From: Dromiciops gliroides
Lineage: Eukaryota > Chordata > Mammalia > Microbiotheria > Microbiotheriidae
Reading direction: 5' to 3'
Assembly (NCBI RefSeq): GCF_019393635.1
Contig: NC_057865.1
Span: 303,099,885-303,163,884 of the forward strand
DNA length: 64,000 nucleotides
The notes under the pieces are model-generated. The model saw only the letters and a program-made list of their open reading frames with translations, did not search any database and was not told the DNA's origin. Within the stretch, counting starts at the first letter, position 1. The number at the start of each line of letters is the position of its first letter. The position numbers and the translations under genes were made by a program. This document shows positions 3,721 to 60,039 of this stretch, piece by piece.

Positions 3721-3789
3721 TAGAGCAGCTGCGTGGGCAGGTGCGCCTGCCAGGTGTGACCTCACTTCAGCACCGTGGGTTCATGGGGA

Positions 3790-16284: not shown

Positions 16285-16445
16285 TATTTTTTGTTTTTTG
16301 TTTTATTTTTTTGCTGGGCAAAGAAGGTTAAGTGACTTAGGGTCACACAGCTAGTAAGTGTCAAGTGTCTGAGGCCGGATTTGAACTGAGGTACTCCTGA
16401 TTCCAGGGCCAATACTTTATCCACTGTGCCACCTAGCTGCCCCCC
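16285..16445 (-). mobile_element. Second SINE private to satellite array A
   Basis: This is a reverse WSINE1-type copy (TTTTGCTGGGCAAAGAAGGT, ending CCACCTAGCTGCCCC) inside the satellite text ACATGCAGTATATAATTTA. It is absent from array B. Confidence 0.88.
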
Positions 16446-28216: not shown

Positions 28217-28265
<49 letters not shown>

Positions 28266-28602
28266 AAACACACCCGTCCTGAAAGTGATCCCTAAATGGT
28301 TTTAGGCTGAAAGGAGTCATCCTGCTTGTCATTTCTTTCTTTTAAAAATTTATTTTAATTTAATTATTTTTTATGAATAGAATTTTCTTTTCCAAAATAC
28401 ATATGAATACAAATTTTGTATTTGTATTTTGTATTTTTAAGGAAACTGAGGCCAAGAGGATTGAGAAACTTCACATGGGCTGCAGCCATAGGAAAGATTT
28501 GAAGCCAGATGGGAACCCAGGAAGATGAATCTTCCTGACTCCAGGCCCCAGCATTTTCTATCCAATGCCACTATCCCAAGGCCCAGGCAGAGTATTACAG
28601 AG

Positions 28603-28648
<46 letters not shown>

Positions 28649-28671
28649 CAGAGACAGACAGAGACAGAGAC

Positions 28672-28702
<31 letters not shown>

Positions 28703-28798
28703 CACACACACACACACACACACAGAGAACGAAGGTAGATCAAGCATTGTGAAGGCATACAAGTAAAAACCACCTCGAAAAACAAGTTTAAAATCCCC
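28043..28798 (+). repeat. TG-rich composite repeats, copies B1 and B2
   Basis: These are the duplicate of 480-1161. The (TG)n, (CA)n and ACAG tract lengths differ from copy A while the flanks match, as expected of slipping microsatellites. Confidence 0.75.
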
Positions 28799-28970
28799 GG
28801 GGCAGCTAGGTGGCCCAGTGGATAGAGCACTGGCCCTGGAGTCCGGAGGACCTGAGTTCAAATCCAGCCCCAGACACTTAACATTTACTAGCTGTGTGAC
28901 CCTGGGCAAGTCACTTAACAACAAGTGCCTCATCCCCCCCACACCCCCCCCAAAAAAATCCCCAATGAAA
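28799..28970 (+). mobile_element. WSINE1-type SINE (copy B of 1162-1325)
   Basis: It has the same position, same junctions and same unusual tail (CATCCCCCCCACACCCCCCC) as in copy A. Confidence 0.9.
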
Positions 28971-29840
28971 CACCAAAATAAAAATCCTAAAAATCAGAAG
29001 AGAGATCAATAAAAATCCAAGGGAAACCAAACGCAGCCACTGCTGAGCTAAGGAATAAGAGTGGTAGGAGGTGGTTTTAGCTCGTGGGAGGGGGAGAAAA
29101 TTGATATAGAAAAAAATCTTTTCGTGACATTGGAGGCTAAAATAAAACACCACCCAAAGAGATTGGCAGAAGAAGGGGGAAAAAAATAAGGAAAGAAGAG
29201 AAAAAAGAAAAATGCATCGGTCAGATCTGTGAATACGGGAAGAGTGGATGCCCAAACCAGGGGAAGAAAGGCTCACAGGAGGTGAAACAGATGATTTTGA
29301 TTCCATGAGATGGAAAAGTTTTTGCCTAGGGTACGTGCGATGGAGCCAAAATGAGAGGAGAAGCAAAACACTTTGGGTTTTTCCGAATTCCTCCCCTCCC
29401 CTCCCCCTATTCCCTCCCCTCCCTCACAGCATGGACAACGTGGATTTAGCTTTCGGGAGTAAAGAGTGTCTTCTTTTTTACCGTGCTACTTTCACGACAG
29501 CACTAAGAAGGAAACATGGAGATATGTACCCATACAAACAGACGCACTACTCCTAGGTATACATGCAGGCCCCACTCCCACCCCCCTGTCATAGCACCCC
29601 GCACAGCCCCCGCCCCCCCAATACATATATGTATTTATTCCTTCCTTGCCTTCTGAATATGTGTGTTCCTGCGCAGGGGGAGCGGGGTTTGGGGGTAAAG
29701 GACCAGAGGGAGGGAGAACACGTAAAATTTGAAAATAAAACCAGAAGGAGGCACTTGTCATTTTTTCTTCTGGAAAGCGTCAGCCTCAGGAGGCAGGGAG
29801 GGAAGGAGGGAGGGAGGGAGGGCTGGCTTGGACAGATGCA
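28971..29840. other. Duplicated non-coding sequence (copy B), no gene
   Basis: It matches 1326-2200 closely, including the only 102-codon frame conserved between the copies (1610-1918 and 29248-29556). That frame has no recognisable family. Confidence 0.5.
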
Positions 29841-30620
29841 AGGAGGAGGGTTTCAGATTTCAGCAAGTTTCCTGGGCGACTGACAGCAGCCTGTGGGCAG
29901 GAGCAGGGGCAGGGGCTCCCGCGCTCGCTCCGCACATTGCCCCGCACAGCCTCCCGCGGGGGTAAGGAGAGGATGACTGTTGCTGGGATTTGGTGTTGTG
30001 ATCCTAAAAATTCCCCGTCCTGGTTCTCTTCTCCGCCCCGACCCCGCCCCCCCCCCGGCCCCCCATCTCCCTGTTCATTAACCTCCATGCGGTTCAGCTG
30101 AGTGGAAGGGGGGGGAATATCAGCTGGTAGCTCTTGGCCCCAGCCCTTCTTCTCGAGGCAGGAATGAGCCTGTAGAGGTCCCGCCACCCCGGGGGGCCCA
30201 GAGACCTGCGGGCTCTCGTCGGGGGAGGCGGTGCTCTGAGCTAGGAGAGCGCTCCGGGGGGAGGCGCGGGGAGAAAGGGGCAGAGTGGGCACGGGTCCCC
30301 ATAAGGCTTCTTTGTCATCCTCTCCGGCTTCCCGTCTCGCTCGCCCGCTCCTCCCCCCCCCCCCGCCGCCCCCGAAACCCTAAAGAAACGAATCAGTCGG
30401 TTGGGGTGGGGGGGTATGGGGACCCGAGAGATTGTGCAGGGGCAGGGAGGTGGGCTCTATGCCAGCGAGAGGCGGACCAAGAGCGTCCAGGGGGAAACGG
30501 GTGGATGTGGGAGGAGGGTCGATTTGAGACCCTCAGTGTCCCCAGTGGCTCAGGTGACGAAGGTACTGGCTTCTGGCAGGAGAGACGACGTTTCGGACTC
30601 GGTGCCTGGCGGGGCCATGC
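29840..30620. promoter_or_regulatory. CpG-rich stretch with possible splice donor (copy B)
   Basis: It matches 2200-2960. The GGGGTAAGGAG donor-like site at about 29957-29968 is intact. Confidence 0.3.
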
Positions 30621-31390
30621 GCACACCAATATATGTATTTATTCCTTTCTTGCCTGCTGAGTATGTGTGTTGGGGGGGGGGGTTCGGGGAGAAGGAAGGG
30701 AGCCAGAGCCAGAGTTGGGGGCGGGACCGGGACCGGGATCAGCATGGCGGACGGAGCACGGGCACAGGCAGAGGCGGAGGCTTTTCTTCCCCTCACAGGC
30801 TCCCAAGCCACCTGTTCGCTTCTTCCTGGCAGTCAGACCTTGGGAGGCAGAGGCTAGGACCTAGGAGACAATGGAGGGAGAAGGGATGAGGGCCGGGGCG
30901 TGGCGCGTGTCCGAGGGCCATTCGCAAGGGCTGGTGCGCGGGCCGTGGGCCTTGTGCGTGGGGTGGTGCTCGAGCTTAAGCCTCCCAGCCTCCACGTATT
31001 GGAGGCAAAGCACCCACCCGACCCTATCCATCCATTGCAAGCGACTCTCCCTCCCTGTGACTAAGACCAAAGGTTCGAACGCTTAGCCTGGGCTCAAGGA
31101 ATAGGTAGGGACACACGAGAGGACAGAAAGCAAACAGAGCCCCTGGGGGAATGCATTCATGCCCCAGATTCCTAACCCCTTCCTCCTTTGGCAGCCACGG
31201 CAGGGCAGGACCCTGGGATGCGCTGTCAGGGTGCTAGGGGAACGGACAGCTTTGGTTCGGCACATAAGCATTGCGAGAGGTTGACTGTCCTTCCCCTTGA
31301 TCTTCTTAAGGGATCCCAAGCCACCCATTCACTGCTTTCTGGCAGTCAAACATCAGGAGGCAGAGGCTAGAACCCAGGAGAGTAGAACAG
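30620..31390 (+). repeat. GC-rich cassette, copy B
   Basis: It has the same two sub-units as 2960-3720 (near 30785-30870 and 31290-31375). Confidence 0.7.
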
Positions 31391-32129
31391 CTGAGTGGGC
31401 AGGTGCGCCTGCCAGGTGTGACCTCACTTCAGCACCGTGGGTTCATGGGGAGGGCGCCTTGCTTAGTGGAAAGAGCAGTGGCCTGGAATCAGGGATTGTA
31501 GCCCTGCCACTAACTAGCTGGGAGACCTTAGACAAGTCATCTACCCTCACTCATCAGGGAAGGGAGCATGGGGGGTGGGGCTCACTTGCCTTCTCTATAT
31601 GGAGCAGGTTGGACTCGGTGGATCCTAAGGTCTCTCCAGCTCTAGCAAAGTGCACCCCAAACTTTTCTTTGATTTATCCAAATCGTTTAAAAAATCAGCA
31701 CCCTGCAGCCCTTTGCATGGTCAGTCTTGGACCTGGGTAGTGAATTCAGGGAGGTCCCTTTAAATGTCTCCGCCTCAGCCCTTCCAGTGGAGCCCTGGAG
31801 CTGCTTAGACTGCAAAGCCACTGAAGGTCCAGTCCCTTTCACTCCTTGGACCCTATTAGGGATGTCATGGGGCCTCTCCACTCCAATACAATTAGTTGCC
31901 TGTAGCATTTTAAAACCTTTGTGCTTCTTTAAGTTGTTTCCCATGTGAAGCCATTCAGGCTAGTTTATTATTTTGCACCACATGGTAATAATAATAATAA
32001 AAAAACATTTTCTGGTGAAGCCTGCACAGAAGACATCCTCCAAAACCCCACCTGTGGACAATGAACACAGCTGCTCACACCTCAATAACTGGGACTCTCT
32101 GAATCAGCTTCTCCTTCCTATGTTCTTGC
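31391..32129. other. Duplicated non-coding sequence with old SINE (copy B)
   Basis: It corresponds to 3721-4460, and the old SINE remnant lies at about 31453-31560. No gene is recognised. Confidence 0.5.
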
Positions 32130-32340
32130 TCTCTCTCTTTTTTTTTTTCAGTGCAACAAACATTTATTCGATTTTTTCCAGTTACACGTAAGGGTAGTTT
32201 TCAACATTCATTTCCATAAAATTTAGAGTTCTAAATTTTTCTCCCTCTCCTCCCCCCCCCCTCCACAATACGTCAACCAGGTTATATATGGACAATCCAC
32301 AAGTGCTCTTTCTATCAGTTCTTTCTATGGGGCTGGGTAG
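32130..32340 (-). mobile_element. L1 3' end, left part (copy B)
   Basis: It is the equivalent of 4461-4677. It ends in the same GGGCTGGGTAG before the LTR. Confidence 0.8.
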
Positions 32341-33339
32341 TGTGGAAATTTATTTTGATTTGGGGACCCTACCTTTGGGCTGCAAATGGAAAGCCTTAGG
32401 CCCTCCGGGTCTCTTCTGTGTGGCAGGGGCACCAGCCCCTCTCCCTCTGCTTCAGCTGAGCCCAAAAGCCCCATGGGCTGTACAAGATGCCAGGTCAGAC
32501 AGCTGGGGAAAAAAATCCTCCAATTGCCTCCGACCTGAGTGGAAGTATCTGAGAGATGCTGGGGCGCACCCCCTCCCCCATCCACAGCCCTGGCTATCGG
32601 ATTAGCTTGGTCTGTGGGGGCACAGGAAGCCCCGAGATTTGAGTGGAGAGAAGAAAAGGTATATATAGACCTGGGAGTTAGACAAGAAAGAGTTGGGGGG
32701 CAGACAAGAGAGGCTGAGAAGAGGTTCAGACAGACAAGGAGAGGCCAAGAGGCAGCTGAGGAGACAGCAAAGACTGGAGACTAGAGACGGGGCCACAAGG
32801 ACGCAGGAGAAGACTAGAAGGACTAGGAGCAGGGAAAAGAGAGGCCAAAGGGCAGACTGACAGAGCAGACAGACAGAAGGTCAATGAGAGAGAAACACAG
32901 GGGGTCAGCAGTGGCAATAAGGAGAGGAAAGTTAAAGGCAGGGGGATTTACAAAGTGAAAGGGGCTCCGAGTTAGAATAAAGGATCTGAGTGCCCTAAGG
33001 AAAGCGGTGGCTAAGGCCCTTATTGCATTAAAAAAGTTCGAGGCACAGCAGGTGGGAAAGAGTCGCAGTGGAAAGAGACGCACCGCAAAGCAGTCAGGTT
33101 GTATATTTTATTTCCCTGTATTCTTAATTTTAAACAGTATCTCATAAATAAACTCTGCGTTAATTATTTAACTAAGAGGCTTCTTAATCTGTAGCTTATC
33201 AATTTGAGAGCAGTGTGGTGGAACAGCCCATGTTAAATTAATAGCAGTCAGATAGCCAAATAGTCAAAAGTCCCCAGATTAGTCCTCCAGTCAGATTAGC
33301 CCCCCCAAATTTAGGCTAGTCAGTAAAAATACTTTTACA
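32341..33339 (+). repeat. Solo LTR at the orthologous retroviral site (copy B)
   Basis: It starts TGTGGAAATTTATTTTGA and ends TTTTACA. It is flanked on both sides by GTAG (32337-32340 and 33340-33343), a clean 4-bp target duplication. It is collinear with the LTRs of the provirus in copy A, with the TATA-like and polyadenylation signals present. It lacks a stretch of roughly 150 bp near the right end. Confidence 0.88.
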
Positions 33340-38602: not shown

Positions 38603-40962
38603 GTTAAAGAATAAAATCAAATTTAAATAATCAAAAATCAAATAGAGGTTCACCTCAAAATGAGACTGAGGAAATAGTAGTGGCTGGTGTGAAAATATCA
38701 AAGGTGTCTAGGATGAGGGTATAGCCCCTCTTAGTGTATCTCAAGGAAACTGAAGTTGAGCAAAATCAAAACATCCATGTAACAGGACAACAAGGAAACA
38801 AATAATTAATTCATTGAGTTTTCCTTAGCCATATATTGGAAACATTTCATTGTATGTTTAGGGAAACTGAGGATTAGAGATTTAAAGGTTCATTGTGAAT
38901 TCTCAAAGCTGGTAACATTTCTATTTTGTCATTGCCTTCAGTGGCCATAGAAGCCAAGACTTTTACATGCAATATATAATTTAAATCATATATTATCCTA
39001 ATTGGACTAAATGGAACACTGAGATTTAAGCCACCTGAGTCCCTATTGTGAAAATATTGAAAGCTGTCTAAGCTTATTTAGTGAATATGAGGGAAACTGA
39101 ACCTGAGAAAAATGAAATAATCCATTTGACAGGACTCTGAGCATCCTAGTTTTTGAAGTGACTGTGCCTCCATTGGCTGAGCAGTATAAACATGTTCACT
39201 GCTTCTTCAGGGATTTTAGGATTACAGATTGGTAGAGACCTCACTGAATGCTCCAAGCTGACTAACACAGAATCTGACAGATCCTTCAGGGGCCACAGAT
39301 TCCAAAACCTTTAGAGAATAAAATAAAATTTAAATCATGAAAAATCAAATTGAAATTTATGTAAAAATGAGACTGAGGAAAGAGTAGTGCCTTGTGGGAA
39401 AATATCAAAGGTGTCTAGGATGAGAGGATAGCCCCACTTAAGGTATCTCAGGGAAACTGAGGTTGAGGGAAAACAAAACATCCATGTGACCTGAGAAGGA
39501 GGAAACAAATGATGAATTCACTGAGTTTTCCTTGGCCATATACTGGAAACCTTTCATTGTGTGTTTGGGAAAACCGAGGATTCGAGATTTAAAGGTCCAT
39601 TGTGAATTCTCAAAGCTGGTAAAAATTCCAATATTTCTCTGCCTTCAGTGGCCATAGAACCCAAGATTTTTTCATGTAGTATAAAATTTAAATCTTATAT
39701 CAACTATATTGTACTAAATGGAACACTGAGGTCTAAGTCACCTGAGTCCCTATTCTGAAAATATCGAAAGCTGTCTAACCTTGTGTCCCCTTTAGTGAAT
39801 ATGAGGGAAACTGAACCTGAGGGAAATGAAATAATCCATTTGACAGGACTCTGAGCATCCTAGTTTTAGAAATGATTGTGCCTCCATTGGCTATGTATTA
39901 TAAACATGGTCACTGATTCATCAGGGAAGTTTAGGATTACAGATTGGTAGGGACCTCACTGAATGTTCAAAGCTGGCTAACACAGAATCTGACAGGTCTT
40001 TCAGGGGCCACAGAATCACAGACCTTTAAAGAATAAAATAAAATTTAAATCATGAAATATCAAATTGAAGTTCATGTAAAAATGAGACTGAGGAAAGACT
40101 AGTGCCTAGTGTGAAAATATCAAAGGTGTCTAGGGTGAGAGTCTAGCCCCACTTAGGGTATCTCAGGGAAACTGAGGTTGAGGTCAATCAAAACATCCAT
40201 GTAACCTGAGAACAAGGAAAGGAATAATGAATTCCCTGAGTTTTCCTTGTCTATATATTGGAAATTTTATCTTGCACGTTTAGGGAAACTGAGGGTTAGA
40301 GATTTAAAGGTGCATCGTGAATTGTCAAAACGGGTAACATTTCCAATATCTCAATGACTTCAGTGCCCGTAGAACCCAAGATTTTTATATGTAGCATAAA
40401 ATTTAAATGATATATTAACCTAATTGGACTAGATGGAACACTGAGATCTAAGCCACCTGAGTCCCTATTGTGAAAAGATCCAAAGCTGTCTAACTTATGG
40501 TTCATTTAGTGAACATGAGGCCAACTGAACCGGAGAGAAATGTAAAAATCCATTTGACAGGATAGTGAACCTCATAGTTTTGAAATGCCTGTGCCTTCAT
40601 TGGCTATGTATTATAAACATCGTCATTGATTCTTCAGGGAACCTTAGGATTACAAATTGGTAGGGACTTCATTGAATCCTCAAAGCTGGCTAACACAGAA
40701 TCTGACAGGTCCTTCAGGGGCCACAGAATTGCAGACCTTTAAAGAATAAAAGAATTTAAATCATGAAAAATCAAATTGAAGTTCATGTAAAAATGAGACT
40801 GAGGAAAGAGTAGTGGCTAGTGTGAAAATATCAAAGGTGTCTGGGATGAGAGTCTAGCCCCACTTAGGGTATCCCAGGGAAACTGAGGTTGAGGGAAATC
40901 AAAGCATCCTTGTGACAGAACAGGGCAACACATAATGAATTCCCTGAGTTTTCCTTGGCCAT

Positions 40963-41415
40963 TGTAATGATTGGAATGATGCCACCTACTGGAGACTTAT
41001 TGTGGGAAAGCTCCGCCATGAGGAAAATGCCTCAGAGGGCAAGGCCATGTGGCTTTTCCTTGGCGTCAGGAAGTGACATTTGCTCGTGGGTGCTGGCTAT
41101 CAAGGCTACCAGCCAATCAACTTGAGGAGCCTCCTATTTTCTGGGAGGAGACAGGAAGGAGGAAAGAGGGCCTTCGCGGAGAGCTCCTGCTCTTTTTGGG
41201 TTCCTGACTTGATGGTGGTGGTGGTGGCAGAGGACTTCACAGGAAATTTGAGGAAAGATAGGAATGCCAGGCTGTTGGAATTCTGTTTTCAATCTTTTTC
41301 TTTCTATTTTTCAATAAACCCTTAACCTAAACTCGTTTTATCAGTGATTTTAGTCAGTGTCCCCCAAAACTGGGGGAACAGATTAGAATCCACATTTAGA
41401 ATCTTAAATTACACA
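40963..41415 (+). mobile_element. Solo LTR inserted in satellite B
   Basis: This 453-bp element runs from TGTAATGATTGG to TTACACA. CCAT is duplicated on both sides (40959-40962 and 41416-41419), matching the uninterrupted satellite text GGCCATATATTGG. An AATAAA signal (TTCAATAAACCC) lies at about 41309-41320. It has no coding capacity and is absent from array A. Confidence 0.85.
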
Positions 41416-42818
41416 CCATATATTGGAAACATTTCCTTGCACATTTAGGGAAACTGAGGGTTAGAGATTTAAAGGTGCATTGTGAATTGTCAAAGCAGGT
41501 AACATTTCCAATATCTCAGTGATTTCAGTGCCCATGGAACCCAAGATTTTTACATGTAGCATAAAATTTAAATCAGATATTAACCTAATTGGACTAGATG
41601 GAACACTGAGATCTAAGCCACCCGAGTCCCTATTGTGAAAATATCAAAAGATATCTATGCTTATGTCCCCTTTAGTGAATATGAGCGAAACTGAACCTGA
41701 GAGAAATGTAAAAATCCATTTGACAGGATAGTGAGCCTCATAGTTTTGAAATGACTGTGCCTTCATTGGCTATGTATTATAAATATGGTAACTGATTCTT
41801 CAGGGAACCTTAGGATTACAAATTGGTAGGGACTTCATTGAATGCTCAACACTGGCTAACATAGAATCTGACAGGTCCTTCAGGGGCCACAGAATCAAAG
41901 ACCTTTAAGGAATCAACCAAAATTCAAATCATCAAAAATCAAATTGAAGTTCAGGAAAAAATGAGACTGAGGAAATAATAGTGCCTAGTGTGAAAATATC
42001 AAAGTGTCGAGAATGAGAATCTAGCCCCTCTTAGTGTATCTGAGGGAAAGTGAGGTTGAGCGAAATGAAAACATCCATGTGACAGGAGAACAAGGCAACA
42101 AGTAATGAATTCACTGAGTTTTCTTTGGCTATATATTGGAAGCATTTCCTTGCACGTTTAGGGAAACTGAGGATTAGAGATTTAAAGGTCCATTGTGAAT
42201 TCTCAAAGTAGGTAATATTTCCAATATCTCAATTAATTCAGTGCCCATAGAACCCAAGACTTTTACATGTAGCATAAAATTTAAATCAGATATTAACCTA
42301 ATTGGACTAGATGGAACACTCAGATCTAAGCCACCTGAGTCCCTATTGTGAAAATATCCAAAGCTGTATAAGCTTATGTCCCCTTTAGTGAATATGAGGG
42401 AAACTGAACCTGAGAGAAATGAAAAAAATCCATTTGACAGGACTCTGAGCATCCTAGTTTTCAAAATGATTGTGCCTCCATTGGCTATGCATTATAAACA
42501 TGTTCATTGCTTCTTCAGGGAAGCTTAGGATTACAGATTGTTAGGGACCTCACTGAATGCTCCAAGCTGGCTAACACAGAATCTGACAGGTCCTTCAGGG
42601 GCCACAAAATCGCAGACCTGAGTCCTGCCTGAGTCCCCAGGAAAGAGCCCCACTTAGGGTATCTCAGGGAAACTGAGGTTGAGGGAAATCAAAACATCCA
42701 TGTGACAGGAGAGGAATGAAAGAAATAATGAATTCACTGAGTTTTCCTTGGCCATATACTGGAAACATCATTGTGTGTTTGGGAAAACTGAGGATTCAAT
42801 TTTTAAAAGTCCATTGTG

Positions 42819-46084: not shown

Positions 46085-47281
46085 ATATTAATTAATAAAG
46101 TATTTTATTTTTTCCCATTACATGTAAAGATAGTTCTCAACTTTTGTTTATATAAGCTTTCCAATTTCAGATTTTTCTCCCACCCTCCCCTCCCTCCCCC
46201 CTCCCCTAGACAGCAGGTAATCTGATATAGGTTATATATATATATATATATATACACACATAATAACATTAATCCTATTTCTGCTTTAGTCATGTTATAA
46301 GAGAAAAATCAGAGCAATGATGAAAAACCTCAAAATAGAAAAAACAACAACACCAAAAACAAAAGAAATAGTATGGTTCATTCAGCATACTCCACAGTTC
46401 TTTTTTTTTCCCCCCTGGATTTAGAGATCCTCTTCTATCATGAGTTCCCTGGAACTCTTCTGCACCATCGCATTGGTGAGAAGAATATAGTCCATCACAG
46501 TAGATCAACACTCAGTGTTGATGATACTGTGTACAATGTTCTTCTTGTTCTGCTCATCTCACTCATCATCAGCCCACGCAAGATCCTCCAGGTTTCTCTG
46601 AACTCCTCCTGCTCATCATTTCTTACAGCACAATAGTATTCCATTGTATTCATATACCACAACTTGTCCAGCCATTCCCCAGTTGATGGGCATCCCCTCA
46701 ACTTCCACTTCCTTGCCACCACATAAAGAGCAGTTATCGATATTTTTGTACATGTGGGTCCCTTTCCCCTTTCCCCTTTCCAAGATTTCTTTGGGAAAAA
46801 GACCCAAAAGTGGTATTGCTGGGTCAAAGGGTATGCACAGCTTTATCGCCCTTTGGGCATAATTCCAAATTGCTGTCCAGAATGGTTGGATCAGTTCACA
46901 GCTCCACCAACAATGCATTAGTGTTCCAATTTTCCCACACCTTCTCCAACATTGATTATTTTCCTTTTTTGTCATTTTAGCCAATCTGATAGGTGTCAGG
47001 TGGTACCTCAGAGTTGTTTTAATTTGAATCTCTCTAATCATTAGAGATTTAGAGCATTTTTTCATATGGGAATAGATAGCTTTGGTTTCTTCATCAGAAA
47101 ACTGCCTGTTCATATCCCTTGACCATTTCTCAATTGGGGAATGACTTGGATTCTTATGAATTTGATTGAATTCCCTATCTATTTTAGAGATGAGGCCTTT
47201 ATCAGAAGTACTGGCCACAAAAATGGTTTTCCAGCTTTCTGCCTCCCTTCTAATTTTGGATGCATTGCTTCTGTTTGTACC
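46085..47281 (-). mobile_element. LINE-1 3' end, relatively well kept
   Basis: On the minus strand the ORF2 C-terminus is open for over 200 codons (46616-47296). It includes CWRRCGKIGTLMHC (zinc-knuckle-like) and IPFDPAIPLLGLFPKEI. The ORF2 end and a 3'-UTR with C/T tract (46180-46210) follow. The left edge is an (AT)n/T-rich tail. It abuts a retroviral fragment at 47281. Confidence 0.9.
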
Positions 47282-48062
47282 ATGGTTAATATTCATGGGA
47301 ATGTTTTGACTAAATTTGAGCTCTAGTGATTGTAATTTTTCTTCTCTCCATTACTAATATTGTCGCATGGCATTTCCTCATAAAACTCTGGAAAGAGAAA
47401 AGATTGTAGCCAATATTGCCCACTAGGCCATGTGCTCAGAGGTATGCTCTCTTTGCTAGAAATGACCTGAGTTCAGAAAGATTTTGACCAGTCTTTGAAA
47501 TCAGGTCAGCAGAAACTGCCTCCCATGTAGGATGCTGCAAAATATATCTGCAGAAGCATCCTGGCACCAGTGCTTTCAGGTCAAGGCATTTAAAAGTCAG
47601 TACAATGCCCCTAAAGCGTGTCAATACTGTGAAAAACAAGGACACTTGTTGAGATAATGTAGAATTAGAAAGCAGGAACTTAGGCAGGCAATGACTGAGA
47701 GTCTTAAAGATTTTTTTCAGGGGAAATAGGAATAATTATGGAAACTTTTACCAAAGAGGAAACAACCAACCCTATCAGGGAGGTACAGAAGGACAGAATC
47801 AGAATCAGGGTAACTTTAGAATCCCTCAGAGAGAGACACAGAAATGATGTACAGGGGAGGAATGGACAATAGACATGGAAAGTTTCATGTTTCCAGACCC
47901 TGAATATATTAACTCTCTTATACCAATCCATTCTCCTCCCCAGAGTAACAAACTCCCTGTGACTTTCAAAGTTGGGGACACAAATTATGATTGCTTATTA
48001 TATACTGGAGCCTCTAAGTCAGTCTTAATGAGTAAAGCAGACCCTGGATGCAATACTATTGG
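47282..48062 (+). mobile_element. Second retroviral gag-protease fragment
   Basis: It is related to 6230-7130 of the provirus, with the same order. The pre-nucleocapsid text is followed by a CCHC knuckle region (CQYCEKQGHLL, about 47615-47650), a basic tail, and the start of a protease-like domain with VGDTNYDCLL and a TGAS motif at about 47970-48025. It is a broken fossil without its own LTRs identified, and a SINE follows at once. Confidence 0.8.
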
Positions 48063-50622: not shown

Positions 50623-52410
50623 CTAAGGAAATATTGTCTTTGTCTCCTCTGTGTAGTTTAGGTTAGGACTCTGCTCATCCCAATTTCTGTACTGTCCTCT
50701 ACTTCTAACTCTGCCTTGTTCTGGCTGGGCTCTGATCTTTCTTCTAACAACAGGCCCACCTCCTAGATAATCAGGGGCAAGGGGAGCAGTTGTACCTCTC
50801 TGGGGAGGGTCCATCCCGGGTCTTGACCCAGGGCCAGAGAGAAAGCGGGACCTGGATATGTGGGCGTATTGCTCCTTATAGGAAGGAGTACTGGTTATTG
50901 ATGGCTCTGGATTGAACCCCATCCTCCTGGGCACTCCCTCTACCCATTCCATTCCTTTTAGCCTCCGGGGAGCCTCAACATAGCTGGTGAGGGTAACATA
51001 GTTGAAGGATTCAGACTTCAGGGGAATAGGGTAGACACTGAAATGCGCCAGCACATTAAAGAGTGTCTGGAACAAGAAGTATAGCACCCGGCACTGACCA
51101 GACTCATTCAGGGACATAAGAAGGTGCTTGGCCCTGCCCTGGAAGTTTAACGTAAGGACATAATCTCCCAGACTCGTCTGGCTTTTACGTACCAGGTAGA
51201 CACCGTGATTGCCAACACCCTCTGTCAGCACTAGCTGGGCAGCTTGGAGTCGAGGGAGGTCCCCATGGAACCAAGGGTACTCTGAAAGGAGGTCATCCCT
51301 ATGACCTCCATGTGACTGTCCCTGACAGAAGAACCACGAACCTGTGGTGTCTGGAGCATAAGGGGCTGGACGGGGATTTGTTTTCCCCGCTGGGGGCCCC
51401 ATTTTAATGGGGAATCGGGGAGACACCTCAGGGGGTATCAGTTCTGTTGAGACATAATCGGAGGCAGAGCTGGGGGAGACAGAAGCTGAGGGATGGTCTG
51501 AGAGGCCCCCACAGGCCCCCTGAGGCAGGTCCTCATTGCTCTCCCTAGGTCCCAAGGGCAGCTCCTGTCTGTGCATTGTCCCTGCCCCATCCTTTAAGGG
51601 TCCTCCTGCCCTACTTCGTGTCTCCATCTCAAAGCTTTCCCCAGGGGATGCCCCATGGCTAGTTGACCCCTCACTGATGCTATCACCCCCATCAGAGGAG
51701 TGGGAGTTGCTGTTTTCACCCAGGACAGGTGGCCCAGAGGCCGAGCTCTCCAAGGGTCCCCCTCCCCTACTTATTATCACCATCTCAAAGCTTTCCCCAG
51801 GGGATGCCCCACACTTAGTTGGCCCCTCACTGGCGCTACCACCCCCACCCAGGCCAGGTGGCCCTGAGGCAGAGGTGTCCAAAGGTCCCACTGCAGAGGG
51901 GGGTTCACCCGCTCCCCGCCACTGGAAGATCCCTCGGACTGAGCAGCCAAATGAGTGGAGGGAGAAGCGTTTTTTCACCTGAGGCTTTGACGAGTTTGAA
52001 GTCATCGAGGAAGGGAGAGGGCCAGCCAGGTCTTCAGAGGATCGAGAACGACCCCACACAGTCAGAGGCTCACTGTTCCCACAGCTCTGCAGGGAAGGAC
52101 CACTTGATGGGGTTTCCTCACCAAGACTAAGGCGCATCCGACCAGATGATAAAAGGGAACCCGAGGCCCGGGCTACCTCCTCCTCAAAGTGCTGCAAGAA
52201 GAGCAGAGCAAAACATCGGGAGAAGGCTGCCTCATCCCCAGAGTACTGGAGATGGGAAGCCCAGTAGAGGTGGAAGCGTTGTGCACAGTCCAGGGCTGCT
52301 TCCCGAGCCTGGGATTCACAGAACTCCTCCCAACCTGGGGAAGGTGGTGGTGATGGGAGAGGGTGAGGAGAAGGGGCAGCGCCATCCTCAGGGGAAGGGG
52401 CACCATTCAT
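50623..52410 (-). CDS. SH2B1: SH2B1-derived retrogene 1 (PH-less SH2 adaptor)
   Basis: This is an intronless frame of 595 codons that reads as a spliced-message copy of SH2B1, the adaptor that links JAK2 and receptor tyrosine kinases to downstream signalling. It opens with [10 protein letters not shown], the SH2B1 N-terminus, so the start is secure. Residues 26-85 match the phenylalanine-zipper dimerisation domain ([27 protein letters not shown]). Residues 121-135 ([15 protein letters not shown]) and the basic patch at 141-160 ([10 protein letters not shown]) also match SH2B1. The PH domain is absent: text from before it (GGPLKDGAG, 269-277) joins text from after it ([12 protein letters not shown]). 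Residues 378-478 form an SH2 domain (YPWFHG; YLVRKS with Arg408, the phosphotyrosine-binding residue). Residues 479-595 are a tail I do not recognise. A segment around ASPGESFEM is duplicated (about 175-268). A cytoplasmic, dimeric, possibly dominant-negative adaptor is my inference. Expression is unproven. Confidence 0.85.
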
Positions 52411-52536
52411 GATGAGCCAGATGAGATGGAGAGTCCAGGATCTGTTGAGGGGTCTGAGGAAGAAGACCCTTAACCCTAAATTGGGACAGAGAAGAGGATA
52501 AGAACAGTGTAGAAATCTGTAAAAATATATCCTTCC
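52411..52536 (-). promoter_or_regulatory. 5' flank of retrogene 1
   Basis: About 125 bases upstream of the start codon match the same position in retrogene 2, so the duplicated unit extends past the ATG. Part of it probably is parental 5'-UTR. No TATA box or CpG island is visible. Confidence 0.4.
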
Positions 52537-52621
52537 TGGCAGCAGCTAGGTGGCACAGTGGATAAAGTACTCGCCCTGATTTCAGGAAGACCTGAGTTCA
52601 AATCTGCCCTCAGACACTTGA
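52537..52621 (+). mobile_element. Truncated SINE upstream of retrogene 1
   Basis: It contains the WSINE1-type head and middle (GGCAGCAGCTAGGTGGCACA to CCTCAGACACTTGA) but no tail. In retrogene 2 a few SINE bases (CAGCTAGGTGG) stand at the equivalent place. Confidence 0.8.
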
Positions 52622-52689
52622 TGCGAACATGAGAGGGAGGATGGTAAAGAAAAAGGACTTACTTGAGGTCAAAAATCTGACTTGAATCC

Positions 52690-53826
52690 CTGTTCTGGTG
52701 GGTGACTATAAATAAAAATGTGGCTTGGCTAAATTACATTTATTACAACCAACAGAGGTTTATAAATTATACAAGAGATGCCATGAGAGGCATGTCCCAA
52801 CAACTGGATGCTATCAGCTGGGTGGCCTGGGAAAACAGAAAGGTGTTAGACATGCTCCCAGCAGAGCCAGGAGGAGTCTGTGTGATGTTATGTGGTGACC
52901 GTTGTATATTTATCCCTAATAATAGAGCCCCAGTTGGGTCCATTACCCAAGCATTGAAAGGGCCCATGGCCCTATCTGAGGAAGTGGCTAGAAATTCAGG
53001 AGTGGATACAAGGGCTTGGATAAGTTGGTTAGACTCTTTGTTTACTGGTCCCTAGTCTAGGGTGAGCTCCATGGTAATAGTGAATTTTAGGGTCCTTCTC
53101 ATACTTCCTGTTCAGTCCCTTGCTTTATAGACTCGGCACAATGTACAATCCAACTGATGCAGCTGACACTGACCCAACGGTTCACAGAGAAAGGAGAAAA
53201 GACCCCGATCCTGAAACTTCAGAAAGGAGAGACCAGTGATGATCTGGACTTAAACCAGCAGGCTGCCAATCATTGGGAAAAGGAAGCAAGCCAGTGACTC
53301 AAGTACAGTGTGTGCTCTCTGAGTAAAAGAGCAAGGGAAGGGCAGCTAGGTGGTGCAGTGGATAGAGCACCGGCCCTGGATTCAGGACGACCTGAGTTCA
53401 AATCTGACCTCAGACACTTAACACTTACTAGCTGTGTGACCCTGGGCAAGTCACTTAACCCCAATTGCCTCACTAAAAAAAAAAAAAAAAAGAGGAAGGG
53501 GGATTGAGTCAGTTCTGACTCTGAGGCTGGGGTCTGGAAAGTTCCCAACCCCCAGTCCCTTTTATGGTTAGACCAATCTGTCCATATTCCATCCTGTTGC
53601 TAAAACACACAGCCCTCCCCCTTGTTCTGTGGCCAAGCAGGAGAGCTGTCTCCTGTTAGTGCAGACCCACCCTGATGCTACCTCTCCCTGCTTGCATTCC
53701 CAAGCCCTAGCTCCTGGGACCAGCTCCTGATATCATCTCTCCCTTCTTCCCCCTTGTCCCCTCTGCTTGACTTGGTGGTCTCCTCGAATTATTTGGGTAA
53801 ACTGAGGCAATTGTCCCATACATCAG
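52690..53826 (+). mobile_element. Retroviral env transmembrane fragment with 3' LTR
   Basis: The plus strand at 52702-53055 reads as a retroviral envelope transmembrane subunit. It includes an immunosuppressive-domain-like segment (ENRKVLDMLPAEPGGVC), a following Cys-rich loop and the FIPNN motif. It lacks the surface subunit and the rest of the provirus. It is followed at about 53300-53826 by an LTR related to the solo LTR at 62240-62812 (CTGAGGCTGGGGTCTGGAAA, CAAATTATTTGGGTAAACTG-type end), itself split by a SINE. It is a fossil and lies head-to-head with retrogene 1. The exact LTR start is uncertain. Confidence 0.75.
53338..53495 (+). mobile_element. SINE inside the LTR
   Basis: This is a near-consensus WSINE1-type copy with a long A tail. 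Confidence 0.93.
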
Positions 53827-53990
53827 TAACAGAGTCCCAGTAGTAAAATTGACTGGGCCTCCCGTGGCTTTAGATGCAAGCAGCTCCAGTGCTTATTTAG
53901 GGTAACTGTGGCTTTAAATTCCACCATTTAAAAAAATTAAGAAAACTAATTAAAAAACATGACACCCCTCCCCCAACAAACAAACAAAAA
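53827..53990. repeat. Dispersed repeat R, copy 1
   Basis: It shares AGTAAAATTGACTGGGC and CAAGCAGCTCCAG with 57590-57700 and 61110-61220. It is a diverged repeat found beside each L1 or retroviral fragment here. Confidence 0.45.
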
Positions 53991-55795
53991 ACGGAGAAAC
54001 TTCCAGTGCCAAAATGGCCAAAAATGAGGAAGTGAGGAAGTAACCCCCAGAGGTTCTCCCAAATTTCCCCTCCAAAGTGACTTAAAACTGCCTCTGAATC
54101 CCTCCAGGGGTAGGGAAGCAGCCCACCAGTTGGGCAGGAAAGGTCTGTCTTACCTGGGAGGGAGGGAGGTGAGGTCCAGGAGTAGGAATAGGAACAGCAG
54201 CAGCAGCAGCAGCTTCTGGCCTCACAGCAGGGGGCCTGAGGCAGGGCTTTTAGCCTGGGCAATTCACCTGCAAGGCTCCACCCCCCTGCAAACCAGCAGC
54301 TCCCTAGGCAGGTGAGCAGTCTGGGCAGCAGTGTAGGGACCCTCACCAGGCACCAGGGAGGTGGCCTACTGACCAGTAGTGAAGCCCTGCCGAAAACTGG
54401 TAAACCGCAAGTTCCCACCCCTGTGACCGTCCAGCAGAGAGACCTTTTCCAGGGCAAACTAGCAACAGGGGACCCCACCCCCCAGCATATTACAACAAAA
54501 TGACCTTTCCAGGGCCTGCTAGCAGAGCATTGATCACCATAGCAAAATTAGGCAGACTGGAAACAAAATTACTCCCCCCCACCCCCAGGGCCTGCTAATA
54601 GAAAGACCCTGCTAACAGAGCAATCCAGCAGCAGGGGCCCAGCCTTGGGGCAGAACAACAGCAAGATCACTCCTCCAGGGCTGGCCACTAGAAAGACTTT
54701 GTTAACTTTAGCAACTTAGAAAAAGCAAGCAGCTAAGACTTGAAGTACAGTGAAAACCTAGAAAGACCCAGAGCCTCAGCACAAAAACCAGGGACAGTTT
54801 AGGAATAGTGCCCTACTTGAATAAAAATATCAAGTCACAAAAGAAGGCACAAAAATGAGCAAAAAAAGCCTGACTATTGATAGGGAAAATCAAGGCATAA
54901 ACACAGAGGAGGACAATAGTAAAAAAAAAAAATTGCTAGAGGTGAAGCTTCAAAGAAAAATGTAAATTGGTCTCAGGTCCAAAAATAATTCCTGTAAGAG
55001 CTTAAAAGGGATTTTGAAAATCAACTTAGAGCAGCAGAAGAAAAACTGGGGAAAGAAATAAAAGTAATGCAGGAGAAACATGAAAAAGAAATACAAAAAT
55101 TTCCTGAGGAAAATAACTCCCAAAAACCAGATTTAGCCAAATGGCTACAAAACTGTGCATACCCTTTGATTCAGCAGTACCACTGCTAGGTTTATATCAC
55201 AAAGATATCTGCCAAGAGAGAAAAAGATGTATTTGTACAAAAATTGTTATAACTGCTCTTTTTGTGGTGGCTAAGAATTGGAAATCAAAGGAATTCCCAT
55301 CCACTGAGGAACAGCTAAACAAACTGTGGCATATGAGGGGGATGTGCTATAAGAAATGACAAGCAGATTGACTTCAGAAAGGCCTGGAAAGTCATGTATG
55401 AAATGATGTCTAGTGAAGTGAGCAGAACCAAGAGAACATTGTGCACAGAGACAGCAATAAGGTTTGATGCAGCACCGTGAATGACTTGACTGTTCTCAAC
55501 AATACAGTGATCCAAGACAATCCCAAAGGACTATTGATGAAGTATACTACCCACTCCAAAGAAAGAACTGATATTGATGGAATAGACTGAAGCATGCTCT
55601 TTTCCACTTTCTTTCATTTTTTTTCCTTTGACTCAAGTCTGCTTGTACAAAGTGTCAAATATGGTCATGTTTTACATAACCATACATATATAACCTATGC
55701 CTGATTGCTTGCCACCTCAGGGAGGGGCGAGGGGAGGGAAGGAAAGAAGGATAAATATTGGAACCCAAAAGTACAAATAAAAATGTTTATTACCA
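53991..55795 (+). mobile_element. Internally deleted LINE-1 (copy 1)
   Basis: It has an L1 5'-UTR (CAAATTTCCCCTCCAAAGTG, the (CAG)n-like 54196-54212 stretch) and the ORF1 N-terminal coiled coil from about 54940 (ATTGGTCTCAGGTCCAAAA). It then jumps near 55138 to the ORF2 C-terminus (CIPFDSAVPLLGLYHKD) and runs through the 3'-UTR to about 55795. Most of ORF1 and nearly all of ORF2 are missing. The same junction occurs in copy 2 at about 63230. Confidence 0.85.
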
Positions 55796-56317
55796 AACAA
55801 AAGTCTAAGACCAAATCTAAGGCCTTCAGTGTACTTAGTATCCAAACTCTTTAAAACTAAGGCATTTGAAGCCAGCTGTGTGAATTCAGTAATCATTTTA
55901 CTTTTCAGTAATCATTTCTAAGACTGAAGCTTGGAGGGCCTGCAGGGTTTGTAGAATGCAAACATTTTCAAAAATCAATCAAAGCAAATATTTTAAAAAG
56001 GAGCCAAACACCTAACGTAACTGGAAGGTAACTGGAAATCTTGGGTCTGCAAGGGTCTAGTTATTATAAAGTGATCTCCAGAGTGGCCGGCTTAGAGGAC
56101 ATGCCCTACTAGTGAATATTGGGGAAGAGAATTCTTAGGGTGATTGATTTGAAATCACCAATAGGGTCATAAAAAGCCTCCAAGATATCCATTTAAAAAG
56201 TGTGTGTGTGTGTGTGTGTGTTAGGAGAAGATACTTTTTTTCATCACCAAAACTGCTGTGGCCAAAAAACATCTTGCAACCTACCCTAGCTTGCCCCCCT
56301 CCTTGCCTCCCTCCCTC
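55796..56317. repeat. Dispersed repeat R, copy 2, and unassigned DNA
   Basis: AATCTTGGGTCTGCAAGGGT and GGCTTAGAGGACATGCCC match 57475-57540 and 60975-61035. A short (TG)n lies at 56201-56222. No gene is seen. Confidence 0.45.
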
Positions 56318-56463
56318 CTTTTCTTTTTTTTTCGGGGCAATGAGGTTTAAATGACTTGCCCAGGGTCACACAGCTAGTAAATGTCAAGTGTCTCAGGCTG
56401 GATTTGAACTCAGGCCCTCCTGACTACAGGGCCAGTGCTTTATCCACTATGCCACCTAGCTGC
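56318..56463 (-). mobile_element. SINE
   Basis: This is a reverse WSINE1-type copy, T-run to GCCACCTAGCTGCG. Confidence 0.92.
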
Positions 56464-57189
56464 GTCTCCCGCCCGCTCCCCCCCCTCCCCCCAGCCCCTT
56501 TTCTTTCACCCAGGAGGCTGGAACTCAGACATAACCTTCTCTGACCAACATTTTCTCCCTGGCTCCATGGAGGACAGAGAGTAGAAGGGACCCTAGGACT
56601 CAAGAGGAGGGGGCAGAGCCTGGGAGGAGTGCCAGCCCTGAGGGGTGGGTTGGAGGGGGGAGAGCAGCAGTGTCCATGGTCCCCCCCACCCAAGCAGGCA
56701 GGACTGAGGCTTCTGGGAAATTGGAAGACCAGAGTCACTCAGGTGTACACCTCTCTTAATGAATGTTTGACCTACACACCGGCACACAGTGTTCCCCCTC
56801 AGCCTCCTGCTTATAGCACTAAGCGAATGGATATTTAATTTACGTAATAATGAAATGGGGGCAGGGGTAAGGGGGTGGCAATCATGCTTTAGTGAGGCTT
56901 GGGAACAAGCTGAGAAAAGTGAGGAGGGGTAGAGAGGCACAATTCCTCAGAGGGCTCTGGGATGGTGAAGGGAGGGGTGTGGAAGGGGCAAAGGCAGAGA
57001 GCTTCCTCCCCCTCCCTGGGAAATTGCGGCAGCTTGAACCCTGGGTGGGTCGGGGTATTTGAGATCCCCTTATTTAGGGTTTTGGAGAAGAGACCAGCTC
57101 CTTTCTGTGCCACCTTGGGGCTAGATCATGGACACCCCAAAGTGAGGAGCCCCTTTGGGCTTCCTTCTGCTCTGGACATAGGGTGGTCC
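56464..57189. other. Unassigned interval
   Basis: It has moderately high GC and purine-rich stretches. The short frames here have no recognised family. I see no feature I can support. Confidence 0.4.
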
Positions 57190-57440
57190 AATTCCTTGTA
57201 ATACTGGAGGTGAAATGAGTACCAATGTCTAACGTTATATTTTCTAGTAATGCATACCTGGGTATGATAGTTAAAAAAATAATCCTAGAAACCCTAGATG
57301 CCGTAGCTGACACTAAGGGATAGGATCTCTTATGACTAATCAAGATTTTAACCATTCTACTGCTGGCATTTAACTGAAGTCTAACCCTATTTGAATACTT
57401 TTTAAAAAAAATAACAAAAAGGAGGTTTTTGATAAAGCAT
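57190..57440 (-). mobile_element. Retroviral integrase core fragment
   Basis: The minus strand reads YPLVSATASRVSRIIF, then IIPRYALLENITLDIGTHFT, which aligns with the integrase catalytic core of class I-type retroviruses. It is a short isolated fossil in the same orientation as the SH2B1 retrogenes. Confidence 0.7.
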
Positions 57441-57879
57441 CTAAACACCAAATGGTACTGGAGGGGAAACTGAAATCTTGGGACCTCAAGGGTCCAGTGT
57501 AAGGTCATTTCGACCATGCTAGGCTTAGAGTACATGCTCAGCTGGTGATTATTTGGAAACATGAAGCTGAGATGGATGAACATTGTCCAAGTAATAAAAT
57601 TAACTGGGCTTTCAGTGACTTTAAAATCCAAGAATCTCTAGTGGTTTTAGAAGAAACTGAGGCTTAGGCATTGGAAGGGAACTTTGTAAGTTCACTAAAC
57701 ATATCAAAGTCTGAATTTTAGAAGGCATTTTAACTGAAAAACTTTACAAAAATCTTTATTCCAGATTATTTTCCTTTTTACCATCATATACATATCATTT
57801 GAATATATCTTTTTAAAATTTTTATTTGAATATTTCTGAAAGGAAGAATCTCTTTTCTTTATAACAAATATTTTAGAGC
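57441..57879. repeat. Dispersed repeat R, copy 3
   Basis: It contains the same R texts (CTTGGGACCTCAAGGGTCCA, then AATTAACTGGGCTTTCAGTG) and leads into the shared 3' flank of retrogene 2. Confidence 0.45.
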
Positions 57880-58231
57880 AAGGAAAACTGCCTTGTAATG
57901 GTGGGCAACATTTTTTAAAAAAAGAAATGTAAGCAACACATGCATGCACACAACATAGAATGATTAAGGAAAAAAGTGCAAAGTATAACAGTATAACAGT
58001 ACGTACATCTTTTTTTTTAAAACAGTAACTATAGTTCAAGTGTGACGGGCACAAGAAGTTACAGCAACAGCAAAAGATGAATCCTTATGAGCGGTCCCAC
58101 AGCCCTACCTAGATTTTTCAGTTGCTAACTTCTTCCACAAAGAGAAAAGAAATAGGATGACAGTGATTCTTTTTAAAACAACTTCCAAAAAGGAAACCAC
58201 GTTACTCACCCAGAGGAGACTGACAAAAGAG
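57880..58231 (-). promoter_or_regulatory. 3' flank of retrogene 2 with conserved splice donor
   Basis: It is homologous to 50280-50622. The donor-like GTGAGT lies at 58204-58209 on the minus strand, about 22 bases after the stop. Confidence 0.4.
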
Positions 58232-59863
58232 CTAAGGAAATACTGTCTTTGTCTTCTCTTTGTAGTTTAAGTTTGGACTCTCCTCATCCCATTGTGTGTA
58301 CTGTCCTCTACTTCCAACTCTGCCTTGTTCTGGCTGGGCTCTGATCTTTCTTCTAACAACAGGCCCATCCCCTAGACAATCAGGGGCAACTGTACCTCTC
58401 TGGGGAGGGACCATCCTGGGTCCTGGCCCAGGGCCAGAGACAAAGGGAAACTTGGACATGTGGTTGTATTCCTTGGTATAGGAAGCAGTACAGGTTATCG
58501 GTGGCTGTGGAGTGGACCCCATCCTCCTGGGCACTCCCTCTGCCGGTTCCCTGCCTTTTGGCCACCAGGGTGGCTCAATATAGCGGGTGAGTGTAACCTG
58601 GTTGAAAGGCTCGTACTTCACTGGAAAAGGGTTGACACTGAAATATGCTAGCATGTCACAGACTGTTGGGAACAAGTGTTGCATCACCCAGCACTGACCA
58701 TCCGCATTTACGGTAAGAAGACTATGCTTGACCCTGCCCTCGAAGTTGAACGTGAGAACATACTGCCCTATCCTATTGTCGCTTTTATGTACTAGGTAGA
58801 CACCATGGCTGGCAGCACCCCCTTCACGCACAAGCAGGGCAGCTTTGAGTTTAGGGAGGTTCCCATGGAACCAAGGGTACTCTGAAAGGAGGTCGTCCCT
58901 ATCACCTCCATCTGACTCCCCCTGAGACAGCAAGGAACTTTGGGTGTCTGGAGCGGAAGGAGCTAGTGGGGGGTAACGTTTCCCCTCTCTGGGCCACTTT
59001 TTAATAGGGAATCGGTGAGGTGCTTTGGATCGTATCAGTGCTATTAAGTCATAATGGGAGGCAGCAGTGAAGGCAGAGCTGGGGGAGACAGAAGCTGAGG
59101 GATGGTCTGAGAGGCCCCCACAGGCCCCCTGAGGCAGGTCCACGTGGCTCTCCCTAGGTGCCAAGGGCAGCTCCTGTCTGTGCTCTGTCCCTGCCCCATC
59201 CTTTAAGGGTCCTCCTGCCGTCCTTAGTGTCTGCATCTCAAAGCTTTCCCCAGGGGATGCCCCACGCCTAGTTGGCCCCTCACTGGCGCTACCACCCCCA
59301 CCCAGGTCAGATGGCCCTGAGGCAGAGGTGTCCAAAGGTCCCACTGCAGAGGGGGAGTCACCCGCTCCCCGCCACTGGAAGATCCCTCGGACTGAGCGGC
59401 CAAATGAGTGCAGGGAGAAGCGTTTCTTCACCTGAGGCTTTGAAGAGTTTGAAGCCATCGAGGAAGGGAGAGGGCCAGCCAGGTCTTCAGAGGATCGAGA
59501 ACGACCCCACACAGTCAGAGGCTCACTGTTCCCACAGCTCTGCAGGGAAGGACCACTTGATGGGGTTTCCTCACCAAGACTAAGGCGCATCCGACCAGAT
59601 GATAAAAGGGAACCCGAGGCCCGGGCCACCTCCCCTTCAAAGTGCTGCAAGAAGAGCAGAGCAAAACGTCGGGAGAAGGCTGCCTCATCCCCAGAGTACT
59701 GGAGATGGGAAGCCCAGTAGAGGCAGAAGCGTCGGGCATAGTCCAGGGCTGCTTCCCGAGCCTGGGATTCACAGAACTCCTGCCAACCTGGGGAAGGTGG
59801 TGGTGATGGGAGAGGGTGAGGAGAAGGGGCAGCGCCATCCTCAGGGGAAGGGGCACCATTCAT
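58232..59863 (-). CDS. SH2B1: SH2B1-derived retrogene 2 (PH-less, SH2 arginine replaced)
   Basis: This is an intronless frame of 543 codons from [10 protein letters not shown], the start used by SH2B1 and by retrogene 1. The frame stays open for 54 more codons upstream (to 60025), but that extension has no counterpart in SH2B1, so I choose the inner ATG. Residues 26-85 are the dimerisation domain ([11 protein letters not shown]) and 141-160 the basic patch. The PH domain is missing at the same place as in retrogene 1. The SH2-like domain starts at YPWFHG, but the position of the phosphotyrosine-binding arginine reads His (GVYLVHKS). Binding to phosphotyrosine is therefore probably lost or altered. 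The tail matches that of retrogene 1 and ends [13 protein letters not shown]. The N-terminal half is nearly identical to retrogene 1, whereas the SH2 half differs at many residues without a stop or frameshift. Confidence 0.82.
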
Positions 59864-60039
59864 GATGAGCCAGATGAGATGGAGAGTCCAGGATCTGTTG
59901 AGGACCCCGTCAGCTGGTTGGCTTTTGGGGACCTTGAAATCCAGAGGAGGGGTCTGAAGGAAAAGACCCTTAATCCTAAATTGGGACAGCGAAGAGGGTA
60001 GTACCAGTATATAATTATTTAACAATATACCCTTCAGTT
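59864..60039 (-). promoter_or_regulatory. 5' flank of retrogene 2
   Basis: It is homologous to 52411-52536 but holds about 50 extra bases (ACCCCGTCAGCTGGTTGGC). The flank ends near 60033, where integrase-like sequence and a trace of SINE begin. Confidence 0.4.

Follow-up and report, generated by a model that had tools for sequence, protein, structure and literature searches.

A subtelomeric tandem family of SH2B1-derived retrogenes lacking the PH domain in Dromiciops gliroides, with statistical signs of coding selection

Results

Two intronless SH2B1-derived frames

Our analysis concerns a 64,000-nucleotide stretch of the 3.3-Gb genome of Dromiciops gliroides (G000:C5:303099885-303163884; hereafter the window), in which two intronless open frames on the minus strand, copies A and B, derive from the adaptor gene SH2B1 and lack its PH domain. 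The monito del monte, as this species is known, is a small hibernating marsupial, and SH2B1 modulates the signalling of JAK2, leptin, insulin and neurotrophin receptors. An initial annotation made from the letters alone had proposed a tandem pair of retrogenes of 595 and 543 codons that keep the SH2B1 dimerisation domain, the basic patch and an SH2-like domain. Both frames lie where it placed them, at full length, with the following features.

50623..52410, minus strand: copy A, intronless open frame of 595 residues, SH2B1-derived, without PH domain
52174..52335, minus strand: copy A Phe_ZIP dimerisation domain (Phe zipper), residues 26-79 (Pfam PF08916, 6.2e-12)
51913..51987, minus strand: copy A basic patch, with a counterpart in parent SH2B1 (sequence alignments)
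51595..51885 (borders approximate), minus strand: copy A internal repeat, two units of ~52 codons (156 nt) each, from parent 2971-3150 (blastn)
51562..51576 (+/- a few bases), minus strand: copy A PH-deletion joint, from parent ~3172 to the exon at ~4800 (alignment)
50980..51285, minus strand: copy A SH2 domain, residues 376-477, FLVR-type arginine present (LVRKS) (Pfam SH2, 1.1e-10)
58232..59863 (ATG at 59863), minus strand: copy B, intronless open frame of 543 residues, SH2B1-derived, without PH domain
59627..59788, minus strand: copy B Phe_ZIP dimerisation domain (Phe zipper), residues 26-79 (Pfam PF08916, 2e-15)
58580..58885, minus strand: copy B SH2 domain, residues 327-428, with His for the FLVR-type arginine (LVHKS) and Lys for the first-helix arginine (Pfam SH2, 1.7e-8)

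The Pfam Phe_ZIP matches and the alignments confirm the dimerisation domain and the basic patch. The description of an SH2-like domain in both copies also holds by Pfam, although B is without the FLVR-type arginine. By phmmer, the SH2 domain of copy A matches SH2B1 SH2 8atk (1.1e-40), and Pfam finds no PH domain in either copy at E values up to 0.1. The helices of the dimerisation domain are confidently predicted in both: AlphaFold2 places them at residues 27-52 and 60-82 in each copy, with ten-residue block means of the predicted local distance difference test (pLDDT) of 89-94 in A and 86-92 in B over residues 21-80.

A subtelomeric family of at least ten loci

The two copies do not form an isolated tandem pair. 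When the genome was searched in six frames with copy A as query, at least ten SH2B1-retrocopy loci were returned, the locus counts being lower bounds. Six open frames (A-F) stand in tandem on C5 from 303.150 to 303.195 Mb; G (303.249 Mb) and H (303.300 Mb), on the same contig, carry frameshifts and stops. A broken copy, J, lies in the interior of C5 (89.6 Mb) and an open copy, I, near the end of C4. The parent SH2B1 is a multi-exon gene at C1:633.560-633.566 Mb (locus L017). Since 208 TTAGGG motifs occupy the final 2 kb of C5 (303,349,291 bases), the array lies 155-199 kb from a telomere; C4 ends ~20 kb from copy I, and its final 2 kb hold one TTAGGG only. Beside G and H (loci L013 and L014), long trinucleotide tracts give Ala- or Cys-rich frames.

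The open frames of A, B, C, D, E, F and I are 595, 543, 569, 530, 544, 775 and 617 residues long, respectively, and marker counts for the ~52-codon tandem repeat are, in the same order, 2, 1, 2, 1, 1, 6 and 3; the repeat-unit indels between copies, of 156 and 468 nt, are in frame. In every open copy each of the five other reading frames carries 13-57 stops, and the open frames are therefore beyond chance. We classify the loci as an SH2B1-derived PH-less family and not as full members of the SH2B family because they have no PH domain.

No PH-less relatives from other marsupials occur among the matches listed in two protein searches, one with copy A alone (148 matches) and one with an eight-sequence profile (142; in both, 8000 best candidates and the best 120 of each), although unannotated copies would escape such searches. 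Among the matches listed, those from koala, Antechinus and bilby are SH2B1 itself. Three SH2B1 entries of Jaculus jaculus (P0045, P0050 and P0051) have no precomputed PH domain, which may reflect an isoform, an annotation gap or a weak match. Dating against other marsupials yielded three informative sites, one shared with the Dromiciops parent, one not, and one partly gapped and mixed, which are too few. Among the papers listed in a literature search, none was seen to describe a PH-less SH2B1 retrogene family, and 'SH2B' is absent from the main text of a 2026 Dromiciops genome paper (PMC13429303). The family is most likely lineage-specific, and it is unusual in its PH loss, its subtelomeric tandem growth and its SH2 diversification.

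Processed origin and the PH joint

The copies are processed SH2B1 retrocopies, with parent exons joined and introns absent. In copy A, blastn against the parent locus aligns parent blocks 2411-3186, 4797-4849, 5900-6078, 6445-6658, 6950-7127 and 8149-8332 contiguously and without introns. The last four of these blocks are contiguous across the copies, with small end differences and a start at 8175 in F, I and J. Block 4797-4849 is matched in A-E, G, H and I and falls under the blastn cut-off in F and J; despite this, the alignment shows that copy F carries sequence at the PH joint region.

This joint links the interior of the first coding exon (...GGGACAGTGCA) with the HELPLGP-encoding exon. 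The initial annotation had the PH domain missing at the same place in A and B, and the joint is in fact common to all seven open copies. Its borders are not splice sites, and a deletion or a reverse-transcriptase jump therefore fits better. A splice isoform as the source of the gap was considered and rejected: by eye, no parental GT at the left joint would leave the sequence seen in the copies, and the right joint lies within an exon.

Downstream of the frames, tracts of 8, 7 and 13 A lie 207-218 nt past the stop in A, F and I, respectively; in A and F no AATAAA precedes the tract, and blastn finds no parent match past 8332-8359 within the 10 kb compared. No target-site duplication of 9-16 nt is present at J, the only copy examined, the array edges being overwritten by duplication. 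An origin of J by retrocopying of the mRNA of one of the copies would be proof of transcription; it was likewise rejected, as no poly(A) was seen there and homology continues past a splice-donor-like site.

Gene models and the C-terminal tail

Gene models from NCBI exist for five copies, A-E. That of copy A is P0001 (Dromiciops gliroides SH2B adapter protein 1-like), which spans 88% of the copy at 95% identity and ends in a different, spliced tail; P0004 corresponds to copy B. Models P0001, P0004, P0003 and P0005 (copies A, B, D and E) exit the open frame past the SH2 domain and continue with other residues; in P0001, a GT after ...MEW is spliced to an AG before EVGLLL. The frames of A and B are nevertheless intact; the model tails may come from transcript evidence. 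In the copies themselves the tail consists of a short piece like the start of an alternative parental exon (GRERAG) and then the last parental exon, whose reading frame here is used by neither of the two Dromiciops SH2B1 isoforms examined. At 22 nt past the stop codons of A, F and I stands a 5' splice donor resembling the consensus (GGTGAGTAA).

Gene conversion

The sequence around the starts of the frames contains three further features.

52411..52450, minus strand: 40 nt upstream of the copy A ATG, invariant (identical in the seven open copies, G and H)
59864..59903, minus strand: 40 nt upstream of the copy B ATG, the same invariant block (sequence comparison)
52330..53894, no strand assigned: tract of near-identity between copy A and copy C (locus L009), -1484 to +81 around the ATG

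Over the tract from -1484 to +81, A and C show four differences (two substitutions and two single-base indels); beyond it they differ by 11% over the coding region and by up to 25% in windows of the SH2 domain. Since this step in divergence sits at +81/+82, a conversion tract is the plain reading, and we regard the segment as the probable product of a recent gene conversion; a coding-specific effect near the start codon was rejected for the position of the step. The 40 nt preceding the ATG are identical in nine copies, yet A and F differ at 12 of 90 nt further upstream. By simple counting, synonymous divergence (dS) between A and B is 0.39 in the SH2 domain and 0.05 in the N-terminal part, and SH2 dS ranges from 0.07 to 0.55 between copies. 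Positive selection alone does not account for the low similarity of the A and B SH2 domains (78%): synonymous sites there are likewise more diverged, and exchange and clade age therefore also contribute.

Divergence of the SH2 domains

The SH2 domains fall into four clades: A; B and D; C and E; and F and I. Copies A, C, E, F and I retain the FLVR-type arginine that serves phosphotyrosine binding, for which B, D and the broken copy J have His; B and D have also exchanged the first-helix arginine for Lys. In SH2B1 beta the phosphotyrosine arginine is R555, and a mutant R555E has been described (PMC3196555).

Selection on the frames

Several statistics point to selection on the coding frames, which had been proposed for at least one of A and B on the strength of their length. 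With the repeat region and the shifted tail of C left out, at least 459 substitutions are counted among the seven open copies, for which 14.8 nonsense changes would be expected and one is observed (P ~6e-6); it lies in the tail of D, 15 codons short of the usual end. In the pairs F-I and A-B, coding indels are multiples of three in 7/7 cases and flanking indels in 0/24 (Fisher 3.8e-7, or 8.4e-6 without the two repeat-unit indels), with flanks of 1300 nt each side for F-I and of 40 and 400 nt for A-B. Across ten copy pairs, the single out-of-frame coding indel is 1 nt in the tail of C.

The ratio of non-synonymous to synonymous substitution (dN/dS) was obtained by simple counting and by codon likelihood (own code, parent excluded). 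Counting gives 0.52-0.83 between copies in the N-terminal part (1.15 for F-I), ~0.6-2.2 in the linker, 0.30-1.15 in the SH2 domain and 0.26-3.0 in the tail. By codon likelihood, the SH2 domain stands at 0.68 with J included (p=0.03) and the C-terminal tail at 1.94 (p=0.003). When the SH2 tree is divided, the terminal branches of the pairs B-D, C-E and F-I, which were defined once the tree had been seen, have a dN/dS of 0.39 (p=0.001 versus 1) and the remaining, between-clade branches one of 1.07 (p=0.78 versus 1; two-ratio likelihood-ratio test p=0.007). Reading frames +1, +2, -0 and -2 of the SH2 region show no such within-clade constraint. In the N-terminal part, site model M2a is preferred over M1a (p=7e-5), with fast sites at 34, 47 and 77 (A numbering) in the dimerisation domain; within A-E alone the signal is p=0.024, and gene conversion may inflate it. 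Clear constraint is present only in the SH2 domain and only along recent branches. Together, the nonsense depletion, the indel phase and the within-clade SH2 ratio support the proposed selection, and they are statistical signs that the frames are probably kept by it, with caveats on the choice of open copies and on gene conversion.

Surroundings in the window

Inside the window, a segmental duplication joins 642-4895 and 28258-32557 (94% identical over 4.3 kb), and further blocks at 10934-12315/34057-35439, 12898-14047/37248-38397 and 18008-19151/46104-47280 are 92-94% identical. Blocks within 14178-17950 and 38604-42619 recur several times, in a local, tandem-like manner, with ~84-90% mutual identity. 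Open frames at 46616-47296 and 18382-18984 (both minus strand) read MNRQFSDEETKAIYSHMKKCSKSLMIRE, wording that we take to be that of a LINE-1 ORF2 tail.

Discussion

A model for PH-less SH2B1 products

We propose that these loci form a lineage-specific set of retrogenes, derived from SH2B1 without its PH domain, and that the encoded proteins associate with SH2B family members, damping JAK2/receptor signalling or steering it elsewhere; to this reading we assign a probability of about 0.5. It starts from the retro-origin, PH loss, family structure, conversion tract and statistical signs of coding selection described above; the expression, dimerisation and targets of the products and the dominant-negative direction of their action are what we infer. 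A Dromiciops SH2B1 mRNA lacking the PH-coding stretch, through deletion or a reverse-transcriptase jump, would have been retrocopied, most simply in one landing, and DNA duplication would then have multiplied this retrocopy into a subtelomeric tandem array and dispersed copies. At least seven copies would have been kept as protein-coding genes with dimerisation helices, basic patch and SH2 domain. Lacking PH-driven recruitment to the membrane, their products may use the Phe zipper to form mixed dimers with SH2B1 or SH2B2, or may bind at SH2B phosphotyrosine sites, and JAK2/receptor-kinase signalling would be dampened or redirected as a result. Docking on phosphotyrosine remains conceivable for copies A, C, E, F and I. 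For B and D, which no longer have the arginine, dimerisation or another surface would be the only possible route. In a published model, SH2-B forms with only the dimerisation domain or only the SH2 domain are predicted to act as dominant negatives, and PH adds potency through membrane recruitment (PMC2667146); following it, copies like A would compete moderately, and those like B would work through dimerisation only. Competition with parent SH2B1, also suggested by the initial annotation, is conjectural, and the case for it is weaker for B, in which the key SH2 arginine is lost.

A number of observations weigh against this proposal. The seven copies in the nonsense count were picked as open, which weakens the depletion, and three of the ten copies are broken; flanking indels that are multiples of three do occur in other pairs (A-D 1/3, B-C 2/5, D-E 1/3). 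A dN/dS well below 1 in the N-terminal domain had been put forward as a mark of function and is not clearly seen here: counting gives 0.52-0.83 (1.15 for F-I), but codon likelihood gives 1.04, not different from 1, along with a few fast sites. The linker, at 1.38 (p ~0.13-0.14, codon likelihood), behaves as unconstrained sequence, and the SH2 ratio excluding J is 0.70, not significantly below 1 (p=0.06). Frame -1 of the SH2 region is also constrained within clades, which is expected because it shares the wobble position with the coding frame. In the tail, frame +2 has a dN/dS of 0.52 (p=0.004) while the coding frame exceeds 1, and the result for the tail is ambiguous because of this apparent constraint. 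Gene conversion can distort codon tests in general. Counting J, the copies have 33-44 of their 102 SH2 residues changed relative to the parent, while the SH2 domain of SH2B1 is identical in Dromiciops, koala, Antechinus and bilby. AlphaFold2 has low confidence for the SH2 domains of A and B (run with no parent control), and Foldseek, applied to copy A only, aligned its SH2 domain to that of SH2B1 with a root-mean-square deviation of 13-14.5; both are uninformative for this domain. From published work, the SH2 domain of SH2-B alone was reported, in another setting, to activate JAK2 (cited in PMC2667146), and SH2-dead SH2B3(R392E) did not block neurite outgrowth (PMC3196555), which disfavours a brake by B and D.

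Alternative explanations

The copies might instead be decaying retropseudogenes, carried as passengers of subtelomeric segmental duplication and held open temporarily by conversion from intact copies. Divergence between A and B is similar at the three codon positions (13.7/11.9/11.3% at 1, 2 and 3), the N-terminal dN/dS is ~1, three copies are broken, C has a 1-nt frameshift and D a nonsense change in the tail, and segmental duplication is seen within the window itself. Decay would leave the nonsense depletion, the indel phase and the within-clade SH2 constraint unaccounted for; moreover, exchange homogenises the 5' part, yet the constraint is found in the SH2 domain, the region most diverged at synonymous sites. 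We consider decay possible but doubtful.

Somewhat less plausible still is a neofunctionalised family in which the SH2 clades were driven apart and then fixed on different phosphotyrosine or non-phosphotyrosine ligands, for example in a conflict with parasites, between parent and offspring or in the germline. An SH2 dN/dS of ~1 between clades and 0.39 within them would suit such a history, as would the tail ratio of 1.94 (p=0.003), the preference for M2a in the N-terminal part (p=7e-5) with fast sites in the dimerisation domain, the arginine loss common to B and D, and a subtelomeric array with conversion. The between-clade ratio of 1.07 is, however, not above 1 (p=0.78), and a relaxed phase explains it; recombination inflates site tests, the signal in A-E alone being p=0.024, and the tail may be spliced out of real transcripts, as in four of the five NCBI models. 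That transcribed copies act as regulatory RNA on SH2B1 mRNA, as sponge or small-RNA source with the protein irrelevant, is very improbable, for although the exon blocks of copy A are 77-86% identical to the parent (blastn) and retrocopies can serve as regulatory RNAs (PMC5509963), the frame-specific signals would be left unexplained.

A bolder extension of the PH-less retrogene family proposed above, and an unlikely one in our view, would make it a set of subtelomeric SH2B1 decoys specific to the monito del monte, amplified from one early PH-less retrocopy, with at least four SH2 specificity classes, one of them without phosphotyrosine binding, later put under purifying selection while conversion kept the 5' regions and N-termini alike; in this hibernating marsupial, such decoys would restrain signalling by leptin, growth hormone, insulin or prolactin to an adjustable degree.

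Relation to known systems and significance

The copies share with parent SH2B1 the Phe zipper, the basic KKRFSL patch and the SH2 domain, and can be aligned with it along most of the frame outside PH; they differ in lacking PH and introns, in the 33-44 of 102 changed SH2 residues, in the 52-codon repeat and in the frame of the tail. SH2B3 (Lnk) is an old multi-exon gene and not a retrogene array. It resembles the proposed products as a natural SH2B-type competitor, which lowers the SH2B1-TrkA interaction and whose SH2 domain is sufficient to inhibit, and differs from them in having a PH domain (PMC3196555). Retrocopies of APOBEC3 in primates likewise enlarge the repertoire of a gene family (PMC7263822), but these encode cytidine deaminases and belong to another lineage. 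The POTE family of primate segmental duplications is also a lineage-specific multi-copy family in duplicated DNA (PMC7073761); it is not SH2B-derived, whereas the copies here share a retro-origin and one domain deletion.

For a hibernating species a link to torpor can be raised as speculation: Sh2b1 is placed under energetics among the hoary bat genes under selection, and its deletion in the mouse is said to reduce brown-fat function (PMC8934532). More generally, at least seven open PH-less versions with diverged SH2 domains provide a natural experiment on the parts that an SH2B adaptor requires for pairing and competition, and on how such a protein may act without its PH domain.

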